From assembly GCA_003215655.1 (NCBI GenBank), contig QCKB01000001.1, positions 372,001 through 436,000 of the forward strand: 64,000 nt of DNA, given 5' to 3'. The notes beneath the pieces were generated by a model, which ran no database searches, was not told the origin of the DNA, and saw nothing but the letters and a program-made list of their open reading frames with translations. Source of the stretch: Prochlorococcus sp. AG-409-J16 (GTDB taxonomy: Bacteria > Cyanobacteriota > Cyanobacteriia > PCC-6307 > Cyanobiaceae). Position numbers and translations under genes: made by a program. Positions 26,894 to 36,712 of the stretch are shown here, piece by piece; the first letter of the stretch is position 1, and every line of letters starts with the position of its first letter.

Positions 26894-27003
26894 GTCCGCC
26901 CAAAAGAAACGTCTAATAAAAGAAGAAATCAATCCCCTCGAAGGAGGAGGGAATAGCCCCGAAAAAGGATCGAGGCTATATATCAAATGTCAAAAGATGA
27001 CTA

Positions 27004-27345
27004 TCAGCGACCTTCGAAAACAACGAACGCAGTCCCTTGACTTTGGGTATATGCGTCGTAACCAACCATTCGAACATGGTGGTCTGGATAAGCACGATGG
27101 CAAGCTTCAAGCTCATTGACAACCACGTTTAGATCCTTCTCTCCAAAGAAAGGCAACTTCCAATAAGACCAATAGGTCTGCATGGAACCGCTTGGATGAA
27201 CGTGCTCGATAACAGGGCTCCAGCCCTGAGCAATGATGTAAGCGATTTGATCGTAAATTTCGTCCTGGGTCATCGGCGGTAAAAAGCCGAAGGTTTCCAG
27301 GGTGGCGACTGTTTGGTAGTCACCAACTGTGCTCTGGAAAGGCAT
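27004..27345 (-). CDS. cbbS: RuBisCO small subunit, form IA
   Basis: The 113-residue small subunit caps the L8S8 enzyme. Recognisable parts are the N-terminal VATLETFGFLPPMTQDEIYDQI, WSPVIEHVHP, YWSYWKLPFFGEKD and HVRMVGYDAYTQSQGTAFVVFE. It lies 100 bp downstream of cbbL, and the spacer holds a stable hairpin. 110 bp separate its stop from the csoS2 start. Confidence 0.97.
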   Translation of the reverse strand: MPFQSTVGDYQTVATLETFGFLPPMTQDEIYDQIAYIIAQGWSPVIEHVHPSGSMQTYWSYWKLPFFGEKDLNVVVNELEACHRAYPDHHVRMVGYDAYTQSQGTAFVVFEGR

Positions 27346-27417
27346 GGTGAACCTGGGATTGCGAGTGGGAATAGGTGCCGATTTAATTACCGGCGGCTTA
27401 AATTAAGGGAGTAATTC

Positions 27418-27438
27418 GAGGAGGCATTTAGCCTCCTC
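27418..27438 (-). promoter_or_regulatory. Intercistronic hairpin between cbbL and cbbS
   Basis: GAGGAGGC and GCCTCCTC form a perfect 8-bp GC-rich stem with a 5-nt loop, 8 bp past the cbbL stop. No U-run follows in the direction of transcription, so it is better read as an mRNA-stabilising or partial-termination element than a full terminator. A weaker GCCG/CGGC hairpin lies just downstream. Confidence 0.55.
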
Positions 27439-27445
27439 ATTCTTA

Positions 27446-28861
27446 CTATTGCTGAACGTCGAGCTTGTCGACTGTGTCAAATTCGAACTTGATTTCCTTC
27501 CAGGTCTCAAGCGCGATTGCAAGTTCAGGACTGTGCTTAGCTGCTTCCATAAGGATGTCGCGACTTTCCTTCTCAATCTCACGACCTGCATTACGTGCTT
27601 TCACGCAAGCTTCAAGTGCTACACGGTTAGCAGCTGCTCCAGCAGCAGAGCCCCATGGATGTCCATGAGTACCACCACCGAACTGTAGACAAGAATCGTC
27701 ACCGAAGATTGCCAACAAAGCTGGCATATGCCAAACGTGAATACCACCAGAAGCAACAGCAAATACTCCAGGCATTGAACCCCAATCCTGATCAAAGAAG
27801 TTACCGCGAGTGCGATCTTCAGGGACAAAGGATTCACGAAGGTTGTCTATGTAACCAAGAGTGGTCTGACGATCACCTTCGAGCTTTCCTACAACGGTTC
27901 CGGTGTGGAGCTGATCTCCACCAGAAAGGCGCAAACACTTAGCAAGCACTCGGAAATGGATGCCATGCTTAGGATGGCGGTCAATCACAGCATGCATTGC
28001 ACGGTGAATGTGCAGAAGCATTCCGTTTTTGCGACACCAGTTAGCTAAACCAGTATTAGCAGTGAATCCACCAGTGATGTAGTCATGCATGATTATGGGC
28101 ATGTCAAGTTCTTTGGCGAACTCAGCACGCTCATACATCTCTTCCGGAGTAGTAGCTGTGCAGTTGAGGTAGTGACCTTTAACCTCTCCAGTCTCTTGCT
28201 GAGCAAGCTTTACAGCTTCAGCAACAAACTCAAAACGCTCTCTCCAGCGCTGGAAAGGCTGTGAGTTGATGTTTTCATCATCTTTGGTGAGGTCTAGGCC
28301 ACCACGAAGACACTCATAAACAACACGACCGTAGTTTTTACCAGAAAGGCCAAGTTTTGGCTTAATGGTGCAACCAAGAAGTGGTCGGCCATACTTATTT
28401 AAACGGTCTCGCTCTACAACGATTCCATTAGGAGGTCCTCCACAGGTCTTAATAAAGGCCATTGGGAAACGAATATCTTCAAGGCGCAGATGACGTAGTG
28501 CCTTGAAACCAAATACGTTACCAACCAAAGAGGTCAATACGTTTGTAATAGAGCCTTCCTCGAAGAGGTCTAAGGGATAGGCAATAAATGCATAAAAGGA
28601 CTCCTTATCTCCAGGAACGTCCTCAATTCGATAGCAACGACCTTTATAAAACTCAAGGTCAGTTAGCAACTCAGACCAAACTGTGGACCAAGTACCTGTT
28701 GAAGATTCCGCAGCAACTGCAGCTGCAACCTCTTCTCTAGGGACTCCTTCCTGACCTGTGCACTTAAAGCAGGCCAAAAGGTCTGTATCTAGGGGGACAT
28801 AGTCGGGAGTCCAGTAGGTGTCTCTGTACTCCTTTACCCCAGCGTCATACTTCTTGCTCAT
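27446..28861 (-). CDS. cbbL: RuBisCO large subunit, form IA
   Basis: The catalytic subunit of CO2 fixation, housed in the carboxysome. The 471-residue protein has [13 protein letters not shown] (catalytic Lys), [17 protein letters not shown] (carbamylated Lys and metal-binding Asp/Glu), [10 protein letters not shown], loop 6 [11 protein letters not shown], and [15 protein letters not shown]. The short N terminus and overall pattern match the proteobacterial-type form IA enzyme of alpha-cyanobacteria. It follows csoS1 by 70 bp. Confidence 0.99.
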
Positions 28862-28931
28862 TAGATAACTCCTTTAGGTCGGTATTGAGATTGATATTGC
28901 GAAAGTACTATTTGAGTACTCTCTACAAATG

Positions 28932-29243
28932 TCAGTCCTTCTGACCTAGAAAGTTGCCATTGCCAAGAGCAGGCTCAACTTCACGATGAGGACGCGCAAT
29001 GATATGTGCAGCAACAAGACCGTCGCCTACACGCTCACATGCATCAGCTCCTGCACGAACAGCCGCGTTAACAGCACCTGTTTCTCCACGCACTAAAACT
29101 GTTACGTAGCCGCCACCGACAAACTCACGACCAATGAGGCGCACTTCTGCTGCCTTGGTCATTGCGTCAGCTGCTTCAATTGCGGGAACAAGGCCGCGGG
29201 TCTCGATCATGCCGAGAGCGATGCCCATAGTTTCGTTAGCCAT
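28932..29243 (-). CDS. csoS1: Major carboxysome shell protein CsoS1 (BMC-H)
   Basis: This 103-residue hexamer-forming protein tiles the carboxysome facets. The single BMC domain reads GIALGMIETRGLVPAIEAADAMTKAAEV, FVGGGYVTVLVRGETGAVNAAVRAGADA, then VGDGLVAAHIIARPHREVEPAL. It is the first gene of the operon, directly upstream of cbbL, and should be the most highly expressed. The 348 bp before it hold the operon promoter. Confidence 0.98.
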   Translation of the reverse strand: MANETMGIALGMIETRGLVPAIEAADAMTKAAEVRLIGREFVGGGYVTVLVRGETGAVNAAVRAGADACERVGDGLVAAHIIARPHREVEPALGNGNFLGQKD

Positions 29244-29591
29244 TGGCTGCCTAAGTAAATGGATGGAATGTTCGTGATGGACAATGCTCTGTAAGGACCA
29301 TTCACGTCAAGAGAAATTCGCAAAAAACCCGATCACTTTCCTTATTGACTCTGATAAGCCCTGCTTATCACCCTGTCCCTGACTGTTTTAAACGACTGTT
29401 GGGTTTTGAGTGCGCACCTCAAAACATTCCCTTACAGAACCTTGCAAAAGTTACTAGCTTCTCCATCTGAGACAGACCCCAAGGTTTTGCCAAGGGATGG
29501 AATGTTCAGCCAAGTCTGTCTCACAAATCTGATCAAACTTGTCCATATCTCACAATGAGAGTCAGAATCGATAGGTGGTCAATTAATCCGT
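29244..29591. promoter_or_regulatory. Divergent control region, carboxysome operon / rdgB
   Basis: This 348-bp spacer contains no ORF but unusual structure. GGATGGAATGTTC occurs at 29261-29273 and again at 29495-29507. The core GGAATGTT also appears inverted at 29423-29430. A palindrome GATAAGC-CCT-GCTTATC spans 29353-29369. A second, GTTTTGAG-TGCGCAC-CTCAAAAC, spans 29403-29425; its TGAG-N7-CTCA centre would suit a LysR-type regulator such as the CbbR/RbcR group. Which elements act on cso and which on rdgB is not visible. Confidence 0.55.
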
Positions 29592-30179
29592 TTGTCTAAG
29601 CCTCTAATTACTATTGCGAGTGGCAATTTAAAGAAAGTTGCTGAAATAGAGCACATGCTTGGGCCATTGCCTATTGAGGTTCAGAGGCAACCAAACGACC
29701 TGAATGTTGAAGAGACAGGCGCAACATATCTAGAGAACGCCCTCTTAAAAGCCCAGGCTGCAGCTGAAAGGACCAAAAGCTGGACTATTGCTGATGATTC
29801 CGGATTAGAAGTGGATGCACTTGATGGCAAACCTGGTATTTACTCAGCCCGCTTTGCTCCTACCAATAAAGAAAAAATACACAAATTACTAACTACTCTT
29901 GCTGAGAACCCTTATCGAAGTGCTCGCTTCTGCAGCGTCATGGTTCTTTGCGATCCAGCAGGGAATTTCATCAAGGAAGCGGAAGGAATTTGCTGGGGAG
30001 AACTTCTAAAAGAACCAGCCTATGCAGGTGGAGAGTTCGATTCACTTTTCTGGATACGCGAAACAAAATGTACTTACGGTGAATTAAATCAAGAACAGCT
30101 TTCTCGATTTGGGAGCAGAGGGAAAGCGGCCAGAAGCCTCGCCCCTTGTCTAAGGGAACGCCTAGGAATAAAAATTTAA
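29592..30179 (+). CDS. rdgB: dITP/XTP pyrophosphatase (RdgB/Ham1)
   Basis: A 195-residue house-cleaning enzyme that hydrolyses non-canonical purine triphosphates to monophosphates. Motifs are the opening ITIASGNLKKVAEIEHML, ADDSGLEVDALDGKPGIYSARFA, FCSVMVLCDP and the final SRFGSRGKAARSLAPCL. The start is a TTG at 29592; no better codon precedes the conserved opening. It is transcribed away from the carboxysome operon and converges on csoS1D with 23 bp between stops. Its place inside the carboxysome locus seems to be synteny, not function. Confidence 0.94.
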   Translation: MSKPLITIASGNLKKVAEIEHMLGPLPIEVQRQPNDLNVEETGATYLENALLKAQAAAERTKSWTIADDSGLEVDALDGKPGIYSARFAPTNKEKIHKLLTTLAENPYRSARFCSVMVLCDPAGNFIKEAEGICWGELLKEPAYAGGEFDSLFWIRETKCTYGELNQEQLSRFGSRGKAARSLAPCLRERLGIKI

Positions 30180-30202
30180 ATCCAGAATCAGCTAAAAGAT
30201 AA

Positions 30203-30973
30203 TCAACGATTAATTTGATCAATCGCTCTCATAGCAGCTGCTGCAGCCTCTTCTACATCACCTTCTTTTCCAGCAAGAGTCAAACGGCCAAATGCACCTA
30301 CCCCTTTTACATCAACAATAGTGATATTTGAAGCTTTCTCAGCTTCGTTAGCAGCAATAAGTACATATCCAGCGGGCTCTGTCTCGAGAATAAACATGCT
30401 CATTCCTGACTCAATCATCGAGCCACGCCTGTTCTGGCGGTTAATTAAAACTGCGTGATCAGGAGTTATCGCCCTTATCACCTCTGTCCAGCTGACCTCA
30501 CAAGGACTTCTTCGACTGACTTTGCTCCCAATAGCATCAAGAACAACGTCTCCTGAATGAAGGACTGTGCTCTGATCTCGATGATATAGGGCCAAGGAGC
30601 CAAAAGCCCTCTCAACCACCATCTGACCAAGGCGAACATTGCTTGCCTTTAAAGCAATGTCAGTAACTCTATGAACTGCCATGCCTGGAGAGACCTCCAT
30701 CCAAAGACATGCATCTCCAGGGATAGGCAAAAAGCCTTGACTAACAGTGCCCATATAGGCCGCCAGCTGAGGCTGAAGTGAATCAAGAAAAACGTAAGTC
30801 CGCAGCTCTATTTGCTGCACATGACTATTTTGACGAGCAACCCTTGTAGTTTCTGAATCAGTTGTAATGACGCAGCTTGCCCCCGATGCCTGAGGATGCA
30901 CCTCAGTACCTGTAACGAGAGAACTTCCACCTTCTCTCCTCTCCCGTATTTCTAGGCCAGGGAATCGGTTCAT
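30203..30973 (-). CDS. csoS1D: Carboxysome shell pseudohexamer CsoS1D (BMC-T)
   Basis: A tandem BMC-domain protein of 256 residues. It forms stacked trimers with a gated central pore, thought to pass larger metabolites such as RuBP. The N-terminal 50 residues are an extension. The first BMC domain covers about residues 52-150 ([20 protein letters not shown] ... [20 protein letters not shown]), the second residues 155-256 ([32 protein letters not shown]). It lies beyond rdgB on the same strand as the main operon, so it must have its own promoter. Confidence 0.95.
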
Positions 30974-31073
30974 GGCGCGGATACTACCGGATGACTTGTA
31001 AAACTTCTAAACTTCTTGACCTTGCACCATGGGAAAGAGCCGATAACTTCCAGGTCAGCGACCTCTAGAGACA

Positions 31074-31445
31074 ATGCCAAGCAAACAAGAAAGTACGACT
31101 AACTCAACAAGCCTCCCAAGCGACTTAAAGGCCGAACAAGCATTGGGACTCATCGGGATGGGCCTGATGCAAAAAATGACGAATGAAGGGGCTCCAGCTT
31201 GGACTTGGCCTGAACCAGAAGATGATAGAAAAGCAGACCTCCACTCATTGCGCCAACGGCTCGAAATAACCTCATTAGCCATAGAGACGGGAGCACCTCT
31301 AAGCACCTCGGAAGTTACACAATTACTCGGAGCTCGACCAGGATCAACAAAAACAGTACGAGGAGGTTTAGTTGCAAAAAGGCTCAGTCGGAATATATGG
31401 AAACTTAGTCGAGCTGACAAAGATGATTCCTATTGGCGCAATTAA
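31074..31445 (+). CDS. Hypothetical protein upstream of chlN
   Basis: I do not recognise the family. The 123-residue soluble protein has a Ser/Thr-rich N terminus and a middle helix (LRQRLEITSLAIETGAPLSTSEVTQLLGARPG) that looks like a small helix-turn-helix. It ends in a basic GGLVAKRLSRNIWKLSR segment, so DNA or RNA binding is possible. It reads in the same direction as chlN but 310 bp upstream, so a shared transcript is uncertain. Confidence 0.65.
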   Translation: MPSKQESTTNSTSLPSDLKAEQALGLIGMGLMQKMTNEGAPAWTWPEPEDDRKADLHSLRQRLEITSLAIETGAPLSTSEVTQLLGARPGSTKTVRGGLVAKRLSRNIWKLSRADKDDSYWRN

Positions 31446-33012
<1,567 letters not shown>

Positions 33013-34771: not shown

Positions 34772-35665
<894 letters not shown>

Positions 35666-35698
35666 TTAGTAAAAGGGAATACTTCGCTTTAATCCCTC

Positions 35699-36712
35699 TT
35701 ACTCCAAACCAACTAATTGCATAGACAGGTCCCAAACACGTTTAGCGGTAGAAGGATCTGTCACCCTATCCGATAGTTCCTGGGAAAATTGTTGGCGGTT
35801 TTTCTTTTGACGATTACCCCAACTCCAATGCACACCTGAAAGTCCAAACTCCGGGTCATTGACTACCTGAGCTACACGCCTACCCGCTAATTGCTGGCTG
35901 ACATATCCACCTGTAATCAACCTCTGAAACCAAGGAAACAAAAGTTGGAAAATCCTTGGAGTATTTCTGAAAAGCTTTGTGTCTGCAACACAACCTGGAT
36001 ATAGAGAACTGAAAAGTATTGGTGAGTCCTTATAACGTCGATGTAGTTCTTGAGTCGTAATCATGTTGCATAACTTGCTGTCCTTATAAGCCTTGCCAGG
36101 CTTAAAACGCTTTCCACTAGCCATTGATATTGGCGCAAGAAATCCTTGCTCAAATCCAGATAGATCTCCTAAGTCAGCGGGGGCTGGTATTGGAATCTTC
36201 CCTCCTAACTCCTTAATATTTGCTGTCACAGTTCCAAGGATCACAAGTCTTGGCGCTTCCACTCCCCACGAAGTACCTTTCCAAACAGGCCTTCTAGAGT
36301 GACGAAGGTTGTCTAGAAGAAGATGGATCAAAAGAAAGTGACCAAAGTGATTTGTAGCCATCGAAACCTCATATCCCTGAGCAGAGCGATTAGGCCTTTT
36401 TAGTCGAGGTAAATAAACCGCTGCATTACAAACCAATGCATCAAGAGGCTGATCAAGCGAACTTAAAAGTGCCTCAGTTCCAGATCGAACGCTCTCAAGA
36501 TCTCCAAGGTCCATAAATAAATGTTGTAGCTGTCGAGGCCTGCCAGAAGGTAAACCAATTTTTTCAGCTGCAGCCTCAGCCTTTAAAGGAGAACGATTTG
36601 CAGTAATTACTCGCCAACCAAGGTCTACGAGTGCCTTGGTTGCATATAACCCAACGCCAGAAGTTGTTCCTGTAATCAGAACGGTGCCAGGAGCAGCTTG
36701 AGATGAAGCCAT
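35699..36712 (-). CDS. por: Light-dependent protochlorophyllide reductase
   Basis: POR reduces ring D of protochlorophyllide with NADPH and light. It is a short-chain dehydrogenase: nucleotide-binding [43 protein letters not shown], and the catalytic Tyr-Lys pair in [10 protein letters not shown]. The Cys residues near the substrate and the [12 protein letters not shown] loop before the end are POR-type. The 337-residue length fits. It faces chlL, with 33 bp between stops and a short GGGA/TCCC hairpin between them. Confidence 0.96.

Follow-up and report, generated by a model that had tools for sequence, protein, structure and literature searches.

A conserved hairpin before ham1 in picocyanobacteria has a loop complementary to the predicted 5' end of the carboxysome csoS1 mRNA

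In Prochlorococcus and Synechococcus, which are major primary producers of the ocean and possess few protein regulators, Rubisco and the carboxysome are made from the cso operon. Control of Rubisco expression by RNA has a precedent in RblR, which reportedly lies inside rbcL and for which we know of no hairpin seed or leader pairing. RblR, the antisense RNA of rbcL in Synechocystis (PMC5306279), parallels the candidate presented here in that a cyanobacterium controls Rubisco expression through RNA, but it is an antisense RNA of another kind. Closer in form are Yfr1 and Yfr10, picocyanobacterial hairpin RNAs with a conserved exposed motif; a Yfr10 pull-down in MED4 enriched csoS1 and csoS2 (Lambrecht 2019, PMC6778093). 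The hairpin described here differs from them in that it stands before ham1 and has the loop AAUGUUCAA, without the conserved Yfr1 motif. A further RNA of marine picocyanobacteria that is structured, and abundant, is Yfr103, of 290-328 nt and with seven paralogs in CC9605 (PMC5069720).

The region itself has probably been listed before. Cluster 87 of Axmann 2005 (PMC1242208), probably the csoS1-ham1 region, is entered as "Region upstream of the rbcLS cluster containing conserved promoter", with a total alignment length of 336, two sequences, and structure scores of -4.24 and -3.64. The cluster is marked NT and ascribed to the conserved promoter, for which Vogel 2003 is cited as the reference on the region upstream of rbcLS, and the available text of the paper proposes no RNA, seed or target for it. 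Similarly, no RNA is named at the csoS1-ham1 place in the available text of Steglich 2008 (PMC2518516) or in the Results of Lott 2020 (PMC7368042). Among the papers listed by searches of the open literature, none dealt with the hairpin or the seed.

The window analyzed here is a stretch of 64,000 nt from Prochlorococcus sp. AG-409-J16, in which csoS1 and rbcL are divergent from ham1 across an intergenic region of 348 nt (Table 1). Beyond ham1, an ORF at 30203-30973 (-) contains a BMC domain and scored under the NCBIfam cut-off for CcmP; we take its product to be CsoS1D. Relatives of csoS1 among the best 80 matches of a contig search came from Prochlorococcus, Synechococcus and a few uncultured cyanobacteria.

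Table 1. Positions of genes and sequence elements around the csoS1-ham1 intergenic region of the window
Feature	Position	Strand	Basis or remark
rbcL	27446-28861	-	Same strand, after csoS1; NCBIfam RuBisCO large chain model
csoS1, alpha-carboxysome major shell protein	28932-29243	-	ORF; NCBIfam BMC_CsoS1 model
Copy 1, read GAACATTCCATCC	29261-29273	-	Predicted 5'-terminal nt of csoS1 mRNA; proposed target site
-10-like box CATTGT, csoS1 promoter	29281-29286	-	(C/T)ANNNT, 18 nt after TTGACN hexamer in 60/63 loci
-35-like box TTGACG, csoS1 promoter	29305-29310	-	Sequence alignment of relatives
Palindrome TGATAAGC-AGG-GCTTATCA	29352-29370	.	T-N11-A spacing; upstream of csoS1 -35; largely conserved
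Inverted 8-mer core, AACATTCC	29423-29430	-	Overlaps palindrome arm 29418-29425
-10-like box TAGCTT, proposed + strand transcript	29455-29460	+	TANNNT; 7 nt before hairpin
Predicted conserved RNA hairpin: outer stem TGAGACAGAC/GTCTGTCTCA, inner hairpin, seed-bearing loop	29468-29523	+	Covariation, family search
Copy 2, seed GGAUGGAAUGUUC	29495-29507	+	Complementary over 13 nt to predicted csoS1 mRNA 5' end
Ham1/RdgB-family nucleotide pyrophosphatase gene (ham1)	29592-30179	+	ORF; Pfam Ham1p_like

An initial annotation had pointed to a 13-nt direct repeat in the intergenic region. The repeat GGATGGAATGTTC is indeed exact at both places, and no other site of the window matches it with one mismatch or fewer; when stretched to 16 nt, the copies show 94% agreement. 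A chance origin was rejected as unlikely on dinucleotide shuffles of the 348-nt region, of which 6/4000 contained an exact 13-mer direct repeat, in line with the figure of one in a thousand first estimated. Rather than being scattered over the genome (1.84 Mb, 18 contigs), the 13-mer is present there as just these two exact copies, with three further places at one mismatch. Nor is it absent from related strains: relatives carry it, and both direct copies are conserved in Prochlorococcus and Synechococcus. For comparison across the family, 141 loci with a match were reduced to 69 non-redundant loci and, after six had been dropped by hand as not the element (L024, L081, L169, L180, L181, and L189), to 63.

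On the csoS1 strand, the motif reads GAACATTCC in 60/63 loci having both parts; L006 and L143 read GAACATCCC, and L122 reads GAACAATCC. GAAC follows TTGAC at a distance of exactly 37 nt in 60/63 non-redundant loci, and the distance between the (C/T)ANNNT box and the motif is 7 nt in 59/63. With ordinary sigma-70 spacing, the motif would begin at or next to the predicted +1 and the leader would be 28-33 nt long. Copy 1 is predicted to start at the +1 of the csoS1 mRNA, which bears out the earlier placement of one copy in the likely csoS1 leader. A generic sigma-70 promoter scan returned 0 sites for both the csoS1 promoter and the + strand promoter, a result that weighs against both.

The distal copy lies in a hairpin, the outer stem arms of which are at 29468-29477 and 29514-29523 in the window. 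On an alignment of 27 relatives, 94.7% of the cells of a 7-pair helix were paired, compared with 36-53% for slid control helices, and two-sided changes were found at 7/7 pairs; none of 500 shuffles attained any of five measures. The alignment identifies a conserved secondary structure with compensatory changes. Loop positions 2-8 have a predicted mean unpaired probability of 0.60-0.94. A TANNNT box is present 5' of the stem on the + strand in 62/63 elements (shuffled mean 30.9, maximum 40) and mostly lies at a distance that would place a start at the stem base. This -10-like box is the one mark of a stand-alone small RNA (own promoter and terminator) observed at the locus, where the generic scan gave no promoter and, in the window, no terminator-like site. 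Rfam 15 covariance models run over 27000-31500 gave two weak matches, both outside the element and below the gathering score. In alignment A1, no conserved CUCACAC-type motif of Yfr1/Yfr10 was found in the locus hairpin; a UCUCACAA stretch that the window carries where the stem ends (29519-29526) is unconserved in the same alignment.

Strand tests of the hairpin were mixed. Read on the + strand, cells of the 7-pair helix comprised 15 G.U/U.G against 4 A.C/C.A, an excess that points to an RNA from the + strand. Whole-element energy was lower on the + strand in 26/69 and on the other strand in 41/69, and helix strand counts gave G.U 35 versus A.C 48 with free ends and G.U 25 versus A.C 18 with trimmed ends. 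The side on which terminators lie in the second-locus RNAs described below supports UGGAAUGUUC as the RNA strand.

Given that the two transcripts run in opposite directions, the direct repeat in the DNA becomes complementarity in the RNA: with csoS1 transcribed from the - strand, the copy on the + strand is antisense to the csoS1 mRNA. Over the 63 non-redundant loci, counts from which relatedness was not removed, the two 9-mer cores were identical within the locus in 58, including L006 with the same change in both. Agreement within loci also exceeded partner shuffling at flank positions 10, 11, and 14 (0/500 each); at position 9 it was matched in 4/500 shuffles, and positions 12 and 13 showed no clear within-locus match beyond shuffling. 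At position 10, nine loci have a distal T, and the csoS1 copy then has T in eight, A in one, and C in none; the C/T combination, which gives a G.U pair, occurred 11 times. Mismatches over 14 nt comprised 38 that were G.U-compatible, 8 A.C/C.A, and 23 others. The distal copy is also constrained by its own stem, which may be part of the reason for the C-to-T asymmetry. Contiguous pairing had a median of 15 nt and a mean duplex value of -25.9 kcal/mol, with 13 pairs in the window, 13-19 in 47/63 loci, and just 5-7 in three weak loci of the 63. A tree-aware seed-target test gave a median p of 1, the rows listed holding 0-6 independent pairs on supported branches, which is too few. Judged by sequence and predicted structure, an RNA segment predicted to be exposed is conservedly complementary to the leader of the proposed target mRNA.

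The conservation, the helix, the promoter-like boxes, the complementarity, and the other loci with the same loop, all read from the sequence, are probably best explained by a conserved base-pairing RNA, which would be transcribed, pair in the cell with the 5' end of the cso mRNA, and regulate it. The initial annotation had instead suggested a regulator-binding or looping element. The element is real, conserved, and tied to carbon-fixation genes, as that suggestion held; its protein-site and looping part is less supported. If both copies were DNA sites of one transcription regulator, at the csoS1 +1 and distally, perhaps with looping, the exact spacing to the csoS1 promoter would also be accounted for, as would the near invariance of the 9-mer core, and a regulated region is suggested by the palindrome nearby, which may be a LysR-type (T-N11-A) operator, e.g. 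of RbcR/CbbR. This is nevertheless unlikely, since the distal copy lies within a covarying hairpin, the two copies form complements at the RNA level, further hairpin RNAs at different loci of one genus contain the loop, and the distal copy, unlike the csoS1 copy, has a conserved GGTT extension (CAACC on the + strand). Furthermore, the distance between the copies ranges from about 230-306 nt with csoS1 adjacent to 1.6-2.4 kb in 11 genomes, so that across the loci compared the two sites show no fixed or phased spacing of the kind expected for looping. The third, inverted copy of the 8-mer core that had also been reported is present and overlaps a palindrome arm, but it is unconserved, GGAATGTT being found at that place in the window alone among 23 aligned relatives; it was dropped as a functional site and looks incidental.

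In the 11 genomes with the longer distance, sbtA (Pfam Sbt_1) separates the hairpin from csoS1, and the csoS1 leader retains GAACATTCCA in 11/11. At these loci (L129, L132, L135-L138, L142, L144, L145, L147, and L148), sbtA adjoins the hairpin, and its position between ham1 and csoS1 adds the gene of a bicarbonate transporter to the cso cluster; in L136, sbtA is followed by a P-II-domain gene. As a target, sbtA was rejected, the 330 nt upstream of it having the hairpin's own copy alone at <=1 mismatch in 11/11 loci.

The gene downstream of the hairpin on the + strand is ham1 in 63/63 non-redundant loci, with an extrapolated start that lies at 64-145 nt from the core of the loop in 58 loci and at 207-706 nt in five; since the window locus showed no terminator, the hairpin there may simply be the ham1 leader. 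This constancy, and the conservation of CAACC beyond what the csoS1 match needs, would fit a purely cis-acting ham1 5' leader, with ham1 regulated by the 5' end of the csoS1 mRNA or with the loop recognized by a protein. Such a leader is unlikely to be the whole explanation: in the csoS1 mRNA the motif is the complement of the loop rather than the same RNA sequence, so that one protein would not read both, and the same loop is found away from ham1, in RNAs whose ends resemble a terminator and before a 36-aa ORF.

The exact loop 14-mer TGGAATGTTCAACC is present in 54/121 genomes, compared with 0/121 for its reversed control. The cso copy of the window's own genome has the sequence TGGAATGTTCAGCC, and an exact TGGAATGTTCAACC at G000:C5:123778-123791 (L284, L303) has no clear closing stem and overlaps only a 56-aa ORF. 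A search of that genome for further targets gave 14 exact occurrences of GAACATTCCA versus three for the reversed control; 12 lie outside the cso locus, of which 11 are in ORFs of at least 194 aa and the remaining one is in no ORF other than one of 56 aa. Genus g56 is a Prochlorococcus lineage with a csoS1 leader like those of L017-L021; at other loci of this genus, the loop is found with <=1 mismatch. One class, represented by 8 fetched loci (L224, L252, L253, L255, L256, L258, L259, and L266), has the loop followed by UUCCUCA(C/A)AC; the second-locus RNA of L224 is on the reverse strand at about 1187. The g56 second-locus RNA carries UUCCUCACAC, which we liken to the full Yfr1/Yfr10 motif. 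Of that motif, UCCU is given in the available text of PMC6778093. Most g56 second-locus RNAs end in a terminator-like stem and a U run, with clear folds in L224, L253, L255, L258, L259, and L266. Pairing with a g56 csoS1 leader extends over 16-17 contiguous nt in L253, L255, and L256 and is interrupted in L224, L252, L258, and L266; L259 and L268 were excluded from these counts (2/13 rows), their csoS1 leader having been parsed wrongly. In another g56 class, the loop lies about 50 nt before a 36-aa ORF (MTSINNSSAAKFLALFCIPALLLASGS... and variants; L268, L299, L301, and L302). L300, at about 832 (+), retains the loop and the CUCACAC stretch and has seemingly lost the 5' stem arm; it is possibly a decaying copy of the second RNA. 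The fetched g56 stretches of L257 and L260 contain no second-locus loop at <=3 mismatches, model matches outside the genus had E values of 0.03-0.09 only and led nowhere, and Rfam 15 on five second-locus sources gave a tRNA and a sub-threshold RyhB match. Separate loci bearing the loop imply action in trans.

A covariance model of the + strand hairpin matched 271/400 genomes of the family, in 45/59 genera, at E up to 0.1; this count may include a few false matches such as the R1 match of G041 (E 0.057, L149), which is not near csoS1 and is probably false. Two equal-scoring hairpin copies lie in opposite directions on one contig of G001 (C17:1105-1198 and 35663-35756), possibly an assembly duplication. 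Of the 129 genomes without a model match, 20 were examined; csoS1 reached the cut-off in 17, in 16 of which (L150-L165) it served as the principal gene under study, and a relaxed search recovered a remnant near csoS1 in one, G029. The 9-mer of the csoS1 leader is intact in 60/63 loci with the hairpin versus 4/15 element-less lineages (Fisher p 5e-8, relatedness uncorrected; G008 and G062, of one genus, counted once, and L022 and L084 left out). In L022, L151, L155, and L163, the motif has decayed along with loss of the element while ham1 is still adjacent. L150 keeps the target and has lost the seed from a hairpin remnant; L084 keeps the motif, with no hairpin seen within 2.5 kb upstream. Like the four element-less lineages that retain the 9-mer, these two loci speak against the pairing reading. 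Diverged hairpins before ham1 in element-less genomes were rejected, the longest exact match to the csoS1 leader being 5-7 nt in 14/16 pairs; the two long matches (L311 and L325) came from stretches containing the csoS1 leader itself. That GAACATTCC at the +1 is merely an initial-transcribed or promoter element, its distal likeness being a coincidence or an old duplication, would explain why GAAC near the +1 persists in most element-less csoS1 leaders examined, but is most unlikely given that the rest of the motif has decayed there, that this decay accompanies loss of the element, and that flank positions agree within loci.

The base-pairing RNA favored here would work as follows. A + strand transcript would start at about 29468 with the hairpin at its beginning, either as the ham1 5' leader or as a small RNA cut from that leader, and the hairpin loop would expose GGAUGGAAUGUUC. 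The divergent csoS1-rbcL mRNA would start at about 29273, its first nucleotides being GAACAUUCCAUCC. Pairing would begin between the loop (AAUGUUC) and the very 5' end of the csoS1 mRNA and, in the window, would extend to 13 pairs, giving a duplex that would end just upstream of the ribosome-binding region and could alter the translation start or the decay of the carboxysome/Rubisco mRNA. The sign could be either repression, with ribosome entry blocked, or protection of the mRNA 5' end from decay. We give an even chance to the wider proposal that hairpin RNAs with this loop form a family that controls the alpha-carboxysome/Rubisco operon, its mRNA being capped at the very 5' end; members stand before ham1 across much of the picocyanobacteria and, in a single Prochlorococcus lineage, occur also as a terminator-ended small RNA and in the leader of a 36-aa ORF.

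Such pairing may account for the structured region listed in 2005, and it illustrates that RNA-RNA pairing, and not a protein site, can lie behind a direct repeat in the DNA between two divergent promoters. A directly testable control point would be provided by a conserved RNA that has a defined seed and is aimed at the 5' end of an mRNA. If true, the proposal would mean that some of the most abundant phototrophs of the ocean have a dedicated RNA switch on carbon fixation.
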